From: Paracoccus subflavus
GTDB lineage: Bacteria > Pseudomonadota > Alphaproteobacteria > Rhodobacterales > Rhodobacteraceae
Assembly (NCBI RefSeq): GCF_004310345.1
Contig: NZ_SISK01000005.1
Coordinates: 124,001-188,000, forward strand
DNA: 64,000 nucleotides
Direction: 5' to 3'
The notes beneath the pieces were generated by a model that was not told the origin of the DNA, did no database searches, and was given only the letters and a program-made list of their open reading frames with translations. Made by a program: the position numbers and the translations under genes. Shown here piece after piece: positions 17,122 through 21,616 of the stretch (the stretch's first letter is position 1; the number at the start of each line of letters is the position of its first letter).

Positions 17122-18429
17122 TTACAGGACGTAGCGCGACAGATCCGTGGACCGCGCCAGATCGCCCAGATGGCGCTCGACATAGGCGGCATCGACCTGA
17201 ACCGCCTCGCCGCCCTTGTCGGGGGCGGTAAAGGACAGGTCCTCGAACACGCGTTCGATGACGGTGTACAGCCGGCGGGCGCCGATGTTTTCGACGGCGG
17301 CATTCACCTCGGCGGCGATGCGGGCCAGGGCGGCGATACCGTCGTCGGCAAAGGATACGGTCACGCCCTCGGTCGCCATCAGGGCGGTGTATTGCCGCGT
17401 CAGGGCATTGTCGGTTTCGGTCAGGATGCGGATGAAATCCTCTTCGGTCAGGGCGCGCAGTTCGACCCGGATCGGCAGGCGGCCCTGCAGTTCGGGCAAC
17501 AGGTCGCTGGGCTTGGCGACGTGGAACGCGCCCGAGGCGATGAACAGGATATGGTCGGTCTTGACGGGGCCGTATTTGGTGCCGACGGTCGTGCCCTCGA
17601 TCAGCGGCAGCAGGTCGCGCTGCACGCCCTCGCGGCTGATATCGCCGCCGCGCGCATCGGTGCGGGCGCAGACCTTGTCGATCTCGTCGATGAAGACGAT
17701 GCCGTTCTGCTGCACGGCCTCAAGCGCGTCGGCCTTGACCGCATCGTCGTCCAGCAGCTTGTCGGCCTCTTCGGCGATCAGCAGGTCATAGCTTTCGGCA
17801 ACCGTGATCTTTCGCCGCACCCGGCGCCCGCCGAACGCCTTCATCAGCCCCGACAGGTCCATCATGCCGCCCAGCGGCTGGCCCGGCTGGCCCGGAATTT
17901 CCATCGCGCCGAAGGGGTTCGAGGTGTCCTGCATCTCCAGTTCGATCACGGTGCCGTCCAGTTCGCCGCGCTTCAGCTTGTCGCGGAACATCTGGCGGGT
18001 GCCGTCGCGCGCGTCCTTGCCGGCCAGGGCCTCGATCACTCGGTCCTCGGCCGATTTGTGGGCGCGGGCCTTGACCGCCTCGCGCATCCGCTCGCGCGTG
18101 TCGATCATGGCCGCGTCGGTCAGGTCGCGGATGATCTGTTCCACGTCGCGCCCGACATAGCCCACCTCGGTGAACTTGGTGGCCTCGACCTTGATGAAGG
18201 GGGCGTTGGCCAGCTTGGCCAGTCGCCGGCTGATCTCGGTCTTGCCGACGCCGGTCGGGCCGATCATCAGGATGTTCTTGGGATAGACCTCGTCGCGCAG
18301 GTCGTCACCCAGTTGCTTGCGCCGCCAGCGGTTGCGCAGCGCCACGGCCACGGCGCGCTTGGCGTCCTTCTGGCCGATGATGAAGCGGTCCAGTTCAGAG
18401 ACGATCTCGCGCGGGGTCAGGTCGGTCAT
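17122..18429 (-). CDS. hslU: HslU, ATPase subunit of HslUV protease
   Basis: A 435-residue AAA+ unfoldase that feeds proteins to HslV. It shows [24 protein letters not shown], the Walker [12 protein letters not shown] (about 57-64), the pore/I-domain start [20 protein letters not shown], the Walker [11 protein letters not shown], and the C-terminal tail LSRYVL that inserts into HslV. Full length for the family. Unusually, hslV is not adjacent: it lies about 2.6 kb upstream on the same strand, with five other genes between. Confidence 0.98.
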
Positions 18430-18497
18430 GGGTCTGCCTTGGTTGGGTTCATCCGCAGATAAACAGTCGCGGCAGGGTTTTGAAGGGTTGCAAACTG

Positions 18498-18515
18498 TAT
18501 CTACACATGTAGATA
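18498..18515 (+). promoter_or_regulatory. Candidate BrnA operator in brnTA promoter
   Basis: TATCTACA (18498-18505) and TGTAGATA (18508-18515) form a perfect 8-bp inverted repeat with two bases between. It sits 65 bases upstream of the toxin start in an A/T-richer stretch. BrnA-type antitoxins have a ribbon-helix-helix fold and repress their own promoter at such palindromes, so this is the likely autoregulatory operator. Confidence 0.7.
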
Positions 18516-18580
18516 TAACCCAAACAGGACTGGAGCCAGGAGGTGCTTATGATGCATTAACCAGCTTAGGAATAAGCACA

Positions 18581-18874
18581 ATGTTCGCATGGGATGAGAC
18601 TAAGCGTCTTGCGACCTTAAAGAAGCATGGCATCGATTTTATTGATGCAGTCGAAATCTTTGCCGATACTTATCTGAAACTTCCAGGAAAGGGTGATGCC
18701 GAGCGACGTTACATTGCCATCGGCATGCTGGGCGGGGCCCATATTGCGGTCGTTTATACGGTCCGGAACGGTATGATCCGCCTCATAACTGCTCGGAGGG
18801 CACGGAGAGATGAACGAAAAGATTTCAGGGCCTTATACTCTGGCGGAAATCCGGCGGATGAAGGGCAGGACTGA
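18581..18874 (+). CDS. brnT: BrnT family toxin
   Basis: A 97-residue ribonuclease-type toxin (RelE-like fold). It begins MFAWDETKRLATLKKHGIDF, the standard BrnT opening (FEWDEAKN..NxxKHGVSF), then IFADTYLKLPGKGDAERRYIAIG, VVYTVRNGMIRLITARRARRDER. BrnT inhibits translation by cleaving RNA. The first half of the gene is less GC-rich than its neighbours (ACCTTAAAGAAGCATGGC, for example), which suggests lateral transfer. An AGGA lies upstream of the ATG. The 3' end overlaps brnA by 65 bases because of a C-terminal extension. Confidence 0.93.
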   Translation: MFAWDETKRLATLKKHGIDFIDAVEIFADTYLKLPGKGDAERRYIAIGMLGGAHIAVVYTVRNGMIRLITARRARRDERKDFRALYSGGNPADEGQD

Positions 18875-19097
18875 CTGGGACCGCCTTGCCCGCGAAGGCG
18901 ATTTCGAGGGCGAGGATGAGGACGATTTCGAGGTGGACTGGTCCACCGCGCGGCTTGTCATCCCCGAGCCCAAGAAAGCGGTATCGATCCGCATCGACCC
19001 GGATGTGCTGGATTTCTTTCGCGCCCAGGGAAAGGGCTATCAGACGCGGATGAATGCGGTCCTGCGCGCCTATATGGAGGCCAAGAAAGCCGGCTAG
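18810..19097 (+). CDS. brnA: BrnA family antitoxin
   Basis: A 95-residue antitoxin that binds and neutralises BrnT and represses the operon. The acidic middle (EDEDDFEVDWSTARLV) wraps the toxin in the characterised Brucella complex. The C-terminal half (KKAVSIRIDPDVLDFFRAQGKGYQTRMNAVLRAYME) is the ribbon-helix-helix DNA-binding domain, with the BrnA hallmark G-x-GYQTR-N-vLR-Y. The ATG at 18810 follows GGAGAG; the long overlap with brnT is supported by the match of the whole N-terminus to the family. Confidence 0.93.
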   Translation: MNEKISGPYTLAEIRRMKGRTDWDRLAREGDFEGEDEDDFEVDWSTARLVIPEPKKAVSIRIDPDVLDFFRAQGKGYQTRMNAVLRAYMEAKKAG

Positions 19098-20307: not shown

Positions 20308-20415
20308 TTCTGCATCAAGGTAGGGGATTTTTGCATCATCCGGGATGAAAATCTGGAACGAATCGTCGGCCCGCGGCCTGGTGCGCGTTCCCATTTCATC
20401 AAAAGGACGAAAGCG

Positions 20416-21030
20416 ATGCGACCCCGTGGCGATGCGCCCCCGACCCCCCTGCTGACAAGGCGTGCGCTTGGCGCCTGCCTGGCTGCCGGAACGGCCGCCA
20501 TCAGCCTGGGCCATCGGGCGATCGCGGCGCCGGTCGGAGGGTCCACCATGGATCCGGGCCTGCGCGATGCCGCCTTGCGCGGGCTGGCTGTGGTCCAGTA
20601 CCGGGGCGATCCGGTGGGTGCCGCCGCCGCCCGCGCCACGGCCCTGCGCCTGGCCGAGACGGACCCGGAAGGTGCGCTGCTGCTGCGGCTTTACCGCAAG
20701 CTGGACGTGCTGCCCTCGCAATCCTTCCGGGCCGACATGCCCCCGGCGGCCGAGGCCGACCTGCGCGCCCTGCACGAATCGATCCGCGACAGCAGGCCGG
20801 TGGGTTTCGGCTATACCGACCTGTCTGACCAGGTTTCGCAGCGCGTCGTGCTGCCGTTGGTGCTGGTCAATCCGCCGCAGGGGGTCAAGCTGCTGGCCTG
20901 GTGCCTGAAGGCCGAGGATTATCGGCAGTTCTTCGTCCGCGCCATGCAGGGCCTGATCCCGCAGGACGGCGATTTCACGGCCGAACGCATGGCGCTGCTG
21001 AAAGGACTGGCCGACAAGGAAGGCGTCTGA
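20416..21030 (+). CDS. Predicted exported protein with WYL-like domain
   Basis: A 204-residue protein whose N-terminus looks like a Tat leader (LLTRRALGACL, then a hydrophobic run to AIAAPVGG). The C-terminal part resembles a WYL domain: SIRDSRPVGFGYTDLSDQVSQRVVLPL, then VKLLAWCLKAEDYRQFFVRAMQGL, matching the usual Y-x(n)-R-x(2)-PL and W-C-x(4)-D-Y-R-F-x-R pattern. WYL domains normally bind ligands in cytoplasmic regulators, so an exported one is odd. AAGGA precedes the ATG. It is divergent from the acetyltransferase gene and convergent with hslV. Confidence 0.7.
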   Translation: MRPRGDAPPTPLLTRRALGACLAAGTAAISLGHRAIAAPVGGSTMDPGLRDAALRGLAVVQYRGDPVGAAAARATALRLAETDPEGALLLRLYRKLDVLPSQSFRADMPPAAEADLRALHESIRDSRPVGFGYTDLSDQVSQRVVLPLVLVNPPQGVKLLAWCLKAEDYRQFFVRAMQGLIPQDGDFTAERMALLKGLADKEGV

Positions 21031-21058: not shown

Positions 21059-21616
21059 TCAGCCCCCGATCACCTCGACCGTCAGCTTGCCATTGGTATA
21101 GACGCAGATGTCCGCGGCAATCGCCATGGCCTTGCGGGCCACGGTTTCGGCGTCCAGGTCGGTGTCCATCAGGCCCCGCGCCGCAGCCAGCGCGAAATTG
21201 CCGCCCGATCCGATGGCGGCCACGTCGTGTTCGGGTTCCAGCACGTCGCCCGCGCCGGTCACGACATAGATGTCCTGTCCATCGGTGACGATCAGCATAG
21301 CTTCCAGGTTGCGCAGGTATTTGTCCATGCGCCAGTCCTTGGCCAGATCGACGCAGGCGCGCTGCAACTGGCCGGGCGCGGATTCCAGCTTTTTCTCCAG
21401 CCGCTCCAGCAGGGTGAAGGCGTCCGCCGTCGATCCGGCAAAGCCCACCACCACATCGCGCCCGCCCGGCGTCAGGCGGCGGACCTTGCGCGCCGTGCCC
21501 TTCATCACCGTCTGGCCCACGCTGACCTGACCGTCGCCCGCAACCACCACGCGACCGCCGCGCCGCACCGCCAGGATCGTGGTGCCGTGCCAGCCGGGAA
21601 ATCTGTCATCCGCCAT
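21059..21616 (-). CDS. hslV: HslV, peptidase subunit of HslUV protease
   Basis: A 185-residue proteasome-like threonine peptidase. The catalytic Thr is in [11 protein letters not shown]; HslV is trimmed to expose it. Other hallmarks: [65 protein letters not shown] and [10 protein letters not shown]. An extra ten or so residues precede the catalytic Thr, as in other alphaproteobacteria. GGAG precedes the start. Works with HslU encoded about 2.6 kb downstream in the direction of transcription. Confidence 0.98.

Follow-up and report, generated by a model that had tools for sequence, protein, structure and literature searches.

WYL domains appear in the accessible literature as ligand sensors that are tied to transcription or to defence enzymes. 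According to the available part of the domain survey in the PafBC paper, more than 90 % of the WYL proteins carry a helix-turn-helix (HTH) motif, and export is not mentioned there (PMC6789036). The 2014 WYL survey by Makarova and colleagues describes a groove with four basic residues and a cysteine, and the terms 'signal peptide', 'periplasm' and 'secreted' do not occur in it (PMC4012209). Furthermore, no report of an exported WYL protein was found in the open-licence literature under WYL combined with periplasm, signal peptide, twin-arginine or hslVU.

The closest described systems are the YafY-type HTH-WYL regulators without a WCX domain (class B in the available text of PMC6789036), the ssDNA-sensing WYL activators PafBC and DriD, and the defence regulators BrxR and CapW. 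About half of the BrxR family is co-localised with defence systems, as stated in the accessible sections of PMC9122601. The window analysed here is a stretch of 64,000 nucleotides from Paracoccus subflavus (contig NZ_SISK01000005.1, positions 124,001 to 188,000). It encodes a member of a genuine family of predicted exported WYL proteins, which has a fixed address between hslU and hslV as well as a mobile offshoot that is often located at defence loci. With export as predicted, such a conserved branch means that the WYL fold has a role without any DNA-binding part.

Domain architecture of the window protein

The open reading frame has exact boundaries, with the ATG at 20416 and the stop codon at 21028–21030 (Table 1). 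WYL is the sole Pfam match in the protein (PF13280, E value 3.4e-8, 33.8 bits against a cut-off of 21.8); the same profile scores above its curated cut-off in L076, L144, L154 and L052, and a search of NCBIfam with the window protein gave nothing meaningful. Neither a winged HTH (by Pfam) nor a WCX domain is present, and the protein ends 24 residues past the WYL match.

Table 1 The predicted exported WYL gene and its surroundings in the window
Feature	Position	Strand	Basis
WYL-domain protein with predicted export, 204 aa	20416..21030	+	sequence and orthologs
Ribosome-binding site AAAGGA, 8 nt upstream of the ATG	20402..20407	+	sequence
Tat-like leader, residues 1–37, putative cleavage after AIA (by eye)	20416..20526	+	leader rule and alignments
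Twin arginine, residues 15–16 (LLTRRALG)	20458..20463	+	invariant in 18/18 rows; RR pair in 45/45 rows
Helical linker, residues 46–110, alignable with the linker of HTH-WYL regulators	20551..20745	+	alignments and AlphaFold
WYL domain, residues 116–180	20761..20955	+	Pfam (3.4e-8) and structure comparison
hslV, convergent neighbour, next gene downstream of the ORF	21059..21616	-	PF00227
hslU, far flank of the insertion site	17122..18429	-	Pfam and locus comparison

The input to AlphaFold was the window protein together with 10 orthologs, one of which is cut. The program predicts a leader helix, helices ahead of the barrel, a five-stranded barrel and a single helix (residues 188–202) as the final element; one of the five models was confident (76.7), the others reached 44.6–50.4, and the leader itself is of low confidence. 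The Sm/SH3-like barrel of this prediction, with its one confident model in five, is also found by structure searches. All of the best 30 rows in Foldseek are PafBC, BrxR, CapW or DriD, with PafBC at 9.2e-7, and a second structural aligner places BrxR first (Z 14.2, 97 residues, 2.5 Å), its first rows not named WYL being a CRISPR Cas-related protein (8.6) and Sm/Hfq-like folds (7.7). The window protein thus almost certainly possesses a WYL fold. The initial annotation had proposed a WYL-like C-terminal domain, no DNA-binding region and a position next to hslV. The profile and structure comparisons that it had named as a check of the domain were run and gave WYL, no HTH was recognised by Pfam, and hslV was found as the convergent neighbour, so that these proposals stand.

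A twin-arginine leader and predicted export

Substrates of the twin-arginine translocation (Tat) pathway carry an S/T-RR-x-F/L motif, a weakly hydrophobic run and a −3/−1 cleavage site. The leader of the window protein begins with an n-region and TRRAL; 17 uncharged residues and then AIA|A follow, with the site placed by eye; a permissive cleavage-site rule already flags a position near residue 27. The twin-arginine-like leader, which had been noted before in this reading frame, is confirmed and is conserved across the family.

The family set comprised 45 full-length rows, from which copies cut by a contig end, broken copies and twins from the same genome were omitted (L063, L072, L074, L077, L081, L082, L084–L089, L123, L124 and the G-handle twins). 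An RR pair is present in the leader of all 45, the rows having entered through an RR-motif pattern with the forms of L098 and L099 added by hand and no listed row rejected by the pattern. It is also invariant in the 18 rows of a diverse alignment and represents the fixed part of the leader across the family. As to the alignments themselves, a few rows of A3 begin about a codon off the ATG, and A2 includes one row cut by a contig end.

The strict form of a leader rule of our own demands [ST]RRx[FLIVM] followed by an uncharged stretch of 13 or more residues whose mean Kyte-Doolittle value is at least 0.8; the loose form accepts RR alone in place of the motif. By this rule, a leader of the Tat-substrate type is recognised in 40 of the 45 family rows (strict) or 42 (loose). 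Among the other called genes of the window and of 19 fetched regions, it is recognised in 3 of 234 (strict). Two of these three, one Rieske-like and one solute-binding-like, are by eye presumably real Tat substrates. The five family rows failing the strict rule, and the three failing even the loose one, do so because an arginine interrupts the hydrophobic run. The most distant members, with about 34–43 % identity, keep the RR leader (ILRRNLFGG in L098, GRRSLIAALLG in L099 and LSRRQFAGAALG in L154; also written ILRRNLFGGIALAMLM, GRRSLIAALLGAGAVPTKALA and LSRRQFAGAALGMAALPGAASGA, respectively), and L074, L084 and L085, which lie outside the 45-row set, still carry an LTRRAL leader. L072, the second copy of Phaeovulum (twin G486:C42), has no recognisable leader. 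TatC is encoded in the genome of the window.

Judged from these leaders, the window protein can with good confidence be predicted to be exported to or across the inner membrane, and the RR pair together with the weak hydrophobic region makes Tat the likely route rather than Sec. The proposed export signal was not refuted; it persists down to the distant members. Since this signal stands in place of the DNA-binding part, the protein is predicted to work very probably outside the cytoplasm.

Alternatively, the leader might remain as an uncleaved N-terminal anchor, and the protein would then sit on the outer face of the inner membrane beside a membrane partner. A positive n-region ahead of a hydrophobic run predicts an N-in, C-out topology, in agreement with such an anchor, and the hydrophobic region is weak (median best 13-residue Kyte-Doolittle value 1.35). 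Nevertheless, a cleavage site of the −3/−1 type is found in 42 of the 42 rows passing the loose rule, albeit with a permissive site pattern, and we regard permanent anchoring as unlikely.

Much less probable still is an HTH-less WYL protein that stays in the cytoplasm, its leader unused for export, and acts as a modulating partner of complete HTH-WYL regulators. Genes of the mobile clade B (see below) are divergent from an HTH-WYL regulator in Rhodobacter capsulatus and Phaeovulum, and PafBC is a WYL heterodimer according to the available text of PMC11804915, both of which would suit such a partner. However, this explanation accounts neither for the invariant RR pair and the uncharged stretch in members of about 35 % identity nor for the rarity of such leaders among other genes.

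Probable origin from HTH-WYL regulators

Residues of about 50–200 of the window protein align with the linker and the WYL domain of other WYL proteins at 25–35 % identity, and these relatives, where read in the right frame, begin with an HTH. A profile comparison between the leader and the HTH N-terminus gave no match (probability 0.1 %). Because the mature part aligns with HTH-WYL proteins and the leader does not, replacement of the HTH by a signal peptide would be the simplest history. The window protein would accordingly be a WYL protein of the YafY (HTH-WYL) lineage in which a putative Tat signal peptide replaced the DNA-binding domain. The linker helices, the WYL domain and the groove residues R143, R170 and C163 are common to it and the YafY-type proteins, whereas the exported family differs by the Tat-like leader in place of the HTH, by H120 in place of an arginine and by a VHPxxGVK motif.

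A derivation of the leader from the recognition helix of the HTH was also considered. MAFFT aligns the HTH helix ([ST]xRx[LI]) to the RR motif, with R at the second arginine column in 21 of 21 HTH rows, and GLSRRQF of L154 resembles the HTH helix of L023 (GVSRRQL). Because the profile comparison of both N-termini gave no match, this derivation was set aside and the resemblance is noted as a curiosity.

The groove and its probable ligand

The groove residues were compared between 46 rows of the exported family and 21 HTH-WYL relatives. R143 and R170 are kept in all 46 rows and C163 in 45. In all 46 rows, F occupies position 173 and A, S or E position 176; the relatives have mostly H or R at the former and mostly R at the latter. 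Peculiar to the exported family are K158 (44/46), H120 (46/46; R in 21/21 relatives) and the stretch VHPxxGVK at positions 151–158 with H152 in 45 of the 46 rows. In terms of the canonical groove of four basic residues plus cysteine, R143, R170 and C163 are present, two canonical arginines are replaced and K158 is gained. The groove, having kept three residues but lost the arginine pair, therefore appears constrained yet re-tuned.

By spacing and alignment, R143 and R170 map to R181 and R208 of PafB, and F173 and position 176 would correspond to R211 and R214 of PafB, whose mutation abolishes ssDNA binding as reported in the accessible part of PMC11804915. The exported family has the WYL fold in common with PafBC and DriD and retains the equivalents of PafB R181/R208, but it possesses neither an HTH nor a WCX domain, R211/R214 are changed to F173/A176, and the tyrosine of the WYL motif (Y196 in PafB) is changed to K158. 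The arginine pair with which PafBC binds ssDNA is not present in the exported family, and ssDNA binding in the PafBC manner seems unlikely on these alignments. In addition, most mature proteins are close to neutral or slightly acidic, with a median pI of 6.1 (range 4.7–9.2), which argues to some extent against a general nucleic-acid binder. The ligand is probably a small anionic compound or a peptide, and binding is likely to take place in the periplasm.

The reading which we favour, and which we consider somewhat probable, is that of an HTH-less WYL protein of the YafY lineage that would be exported by Tat and act as a periplasmic ligand-binding protein. It builds on the fold, the conservation of the leader, the absence of an HTH, the fixed locus and the purifying selection in element-borne copies, which the sequences establish. 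The protein would fold in the cytoplasm and then be exported by the Tat pathway; cleavage would follow after about residue 37, or the leader would stay as an anchor; and the mature protein would bind its ligand in the periplasm through the SH3/Sm-like groove.

A fixed address between hslU and hslV

The window clade and the distant members occupy a constant site. At 21 of 21 loci with both flanks visible the gene is located between hslU and hslV and on the strand opposite to both, and at two further loci (G018, and L037/L063 at a contig end) hslV alone is visible. No hslU or hslV is in view at 25 loci of clade B, comprising 24 tree rows and L072, which was placed by similarity.

A survey within the genus covered 30 hslU loci from 41 genomes. 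The exported WYL gene is missing at 16 of the 30, with a gap of 13–246 bp between hslV and hslU, and at six more, with other DNA of 523–1291 bp in between; two show the gene in full, and at five, the window among them, hslV lies outside the flank examined. In G026 a remnant of 24 residues with 71 % identity is left in a hslV–hslU gap of 177 bp (L185 2896–2967), which, by its sequence, is a probable scar of gene loss. The genomes closest to the window by HslU (about 95–96 %) belong to the non-carriers, the examined flank yielding no WYL match at a threshold of E 1e-4. Repeated loss fits this pattern of presence and absence; regain is also possible.

Other genes have been found in the interval as well. 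In the window, a BrnT/BrnA toxin–antitoxin pair at 18317–19097 (+) lies between hslU and hslV, accompanied by a pyridoxamine-oxidase-like gene and a GNAT gene. In a Ruegeria genome, the stretch from hslU to the exported WYL gene contains a gene for another small protein (L066 3357–3746), which begins in a Tat-like manner (MITRRSLFATAAG).

Distribution, decay and selection

Within the genus, 14 of 125 genomes possess a copy at E 1e-20; three of these copies (G018, G073, G128) are broken, and a contig end truncates a fourth (G075). A draw from the family gave a strong match (at least 124 bits) in 10 of 394 genomes, one of them (G490) with an internal stop and the next best match being at 83 bits; a draw from the order gave matches of at least 172 bits in 11 of 390 genomes, followed by 105 bits. 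The sub-threshold matches inspected in both draws are HTH-WYL proteins. Among 24 genomes from other families of the class no match exceeded 42 bits. A scan of one genome per species (84,980 species), which needs exact short peptides and misses distant kin, yielded 48 loci. These loci we assign to the Rhodobacterales by the genus names in the record titles, with a taxonomy drawn in part from a tree listing. By the searches run, the family is restricted to the Rhodobacterales and its distribution is patchy.

The several broken copies imply that the gene is dispensable. Together with the remnant in G026 they would also suit a relic, i.e. an HTH-less regulator in the process of decay. However, intact copies are present across genera, the pN/pS values of nine element-borne copies (0.155 for the mature part, 0.25 for the leader) indicate purifying selection, and the leader motif and the groove are strongly conserved. 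Decay is thus a disfavoured explanation with very little probability left to it.

The mobile clade and its surroundings

The tree separates a clade B of 26 rows (support 95/89), the sub-groups of which track their surroundings. In nine cases the gene is located behind that of a conjugative coupling protein (tested with Pfam T4SS-DNA_transf in L047, the others by clustering and gene order). Several adjoin paired DNA methylases in viral contigs or in similar chromosomal stretches (Pfam tested in L120). The viral contigs account for five loci, two of them cut or broken, and are prophage-like; no phage record matched the exported WYL protein. A plasmid search gave two records from two sister strains. 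The plasmid copy of Paracoccus, annotated merely as 'WYL domain-containing protein', adjoins a C-terminal fragment of Cas1c: on pNSM5TCa of Paracoccus sp. SMMA_5_TC (L125 10911–11291) the type I-C Cas1 match covers only profile positions 252–340 of 340, about the last quarter, beside the exported WYL gene and near phage-like genes.

Three copies are located directly upstream of cas3, of type I-E in L076 and L078 (two R. capsulatus strains) and of type I-C in L075, and one copy adjoins a CRISPR array. The idea of an array beside every clade B gene was rejected: among the loci collected by the time of the scan, arrays were found at just one, which is represented by two copies from one species (L079 and L094). 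The scan required at least three exact 20-mers and therefore misses degenerate arrays. Repeat-like ORFs lie farther off in L138 and L139. At CRISPR loci, HTH-WYL regulators encoded divergently to the exported WYL gene (L076 2966–3829, L078 2773–3759, L079 2913–3896) also match the first 300 of the 1009 positions of a Cas3c model and perhaps reflect a WYL-Cas3 fusion.

Eighteen clade B regions of 8.8–20 kb (L126–L142, L145) were surveyed for defence genes, some of which were tested on a smaller locus from the same contig. Known or candidate defence genes are present in 11 of the 18, a count that depends on picks by eye and serves as a lead rather than a statistic. They comprise AbiJ/PDC-S32, multiubiquitin-E2 (Pfam only), NsnAB, a CBASS cyclase, a ThsB-like TIR, AIPR, type I restriction, Dnd/Pbe, one I-C and two I-E systems. 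One more region shows a CRISPR array alone, and in six (L128, L131, L133, L137, L142, L145) no defence gene was recognised by eye. A simple operon is inadequate as an explanation, since the exported WYL gene and the defence genes occupy opposite strands in L127, L129, L130 and L136.

The WYL gene as a fixed backbone of the conjugative element was likewise rejected, as L165 and L166 encode the coupling protein but lack the WYL gene in the roughly 1.5 kb compared behind it. The identity is 95 % for L165, where the common sequence stops after 52 bases of the compared stretch, and 88 % for L166, with no match there. The ORF ahead of the coupling protein (L047:2-1846) was considered as a relaxase and gave no Pfam match.

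The mobile clade resembles BrxR and CapW in being often beside defence genes, BrxR also being the best structural match. It differs in that the family has no DNA-binding domain, is predicted to be exported and at several loci is strand-opposed to the defence genes; an HTH with promoter binding ahead of defence genes, as in BrxR/CapW, is not found, and the window copy does not precede a defence operon.

These surroundings suggest a role in exclusion or defence: in the periplasm, the WYL protein would encounter DNA on its way into the cell, or else a component of a phage or of conjugation, and would prevent entry. As part of the same reading, the elements would carry the gene for themselves and the chromosomal copy would be a resident version. 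The coupling proteins, viral contigs and plasmid, the position first in line before cas3 of types I-E and I-C and the defence genes in the regions surveyed by eye speak in favour of both. Against this, cargo slots hold defence genes anyway and a third of the regions (6/18) show none, the strand is opposed in four loci, the gene is missing from the compared stretch in two elements closely related to the conjugative one, the window copy lies outside any defence locus save for the BrnT/BrnA pair farther off, and the ssDNA arginine pair is lost. We therefore hold an exclusion role, and with it the resident version, to be rather improbable. Slightly less probable again is the wider proposal that a WYL family moved from cytoplasmic regulation to envelope exclusion or defence. 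Its members would use Tat for export, reside at hslVU in chromosomes of the Rhodobacterales and travel with conjugative elements, prophages and CRISPR-Cas operons, and they would intercept incoming DNA or an envelope component of the invader. With mobile copies located next to cas operons and defence cargo, envelope-stage defence or element exclusion becomes directly testable, for example in R. capsulatus.

Two cargo regions contain further genes. In L127 (4836–6014) multiubiquitin is fused to a prokaryotic E2 as cargo behind the coupling protein. In L132 (6126–14290), genes for a ThsB-like TIR, a TIR plus TGT-like protein, Ogg and a QueC-like protein lie beside the exported WYL gene and may represent an unlisted defence system of the 7-deazaguanine type.
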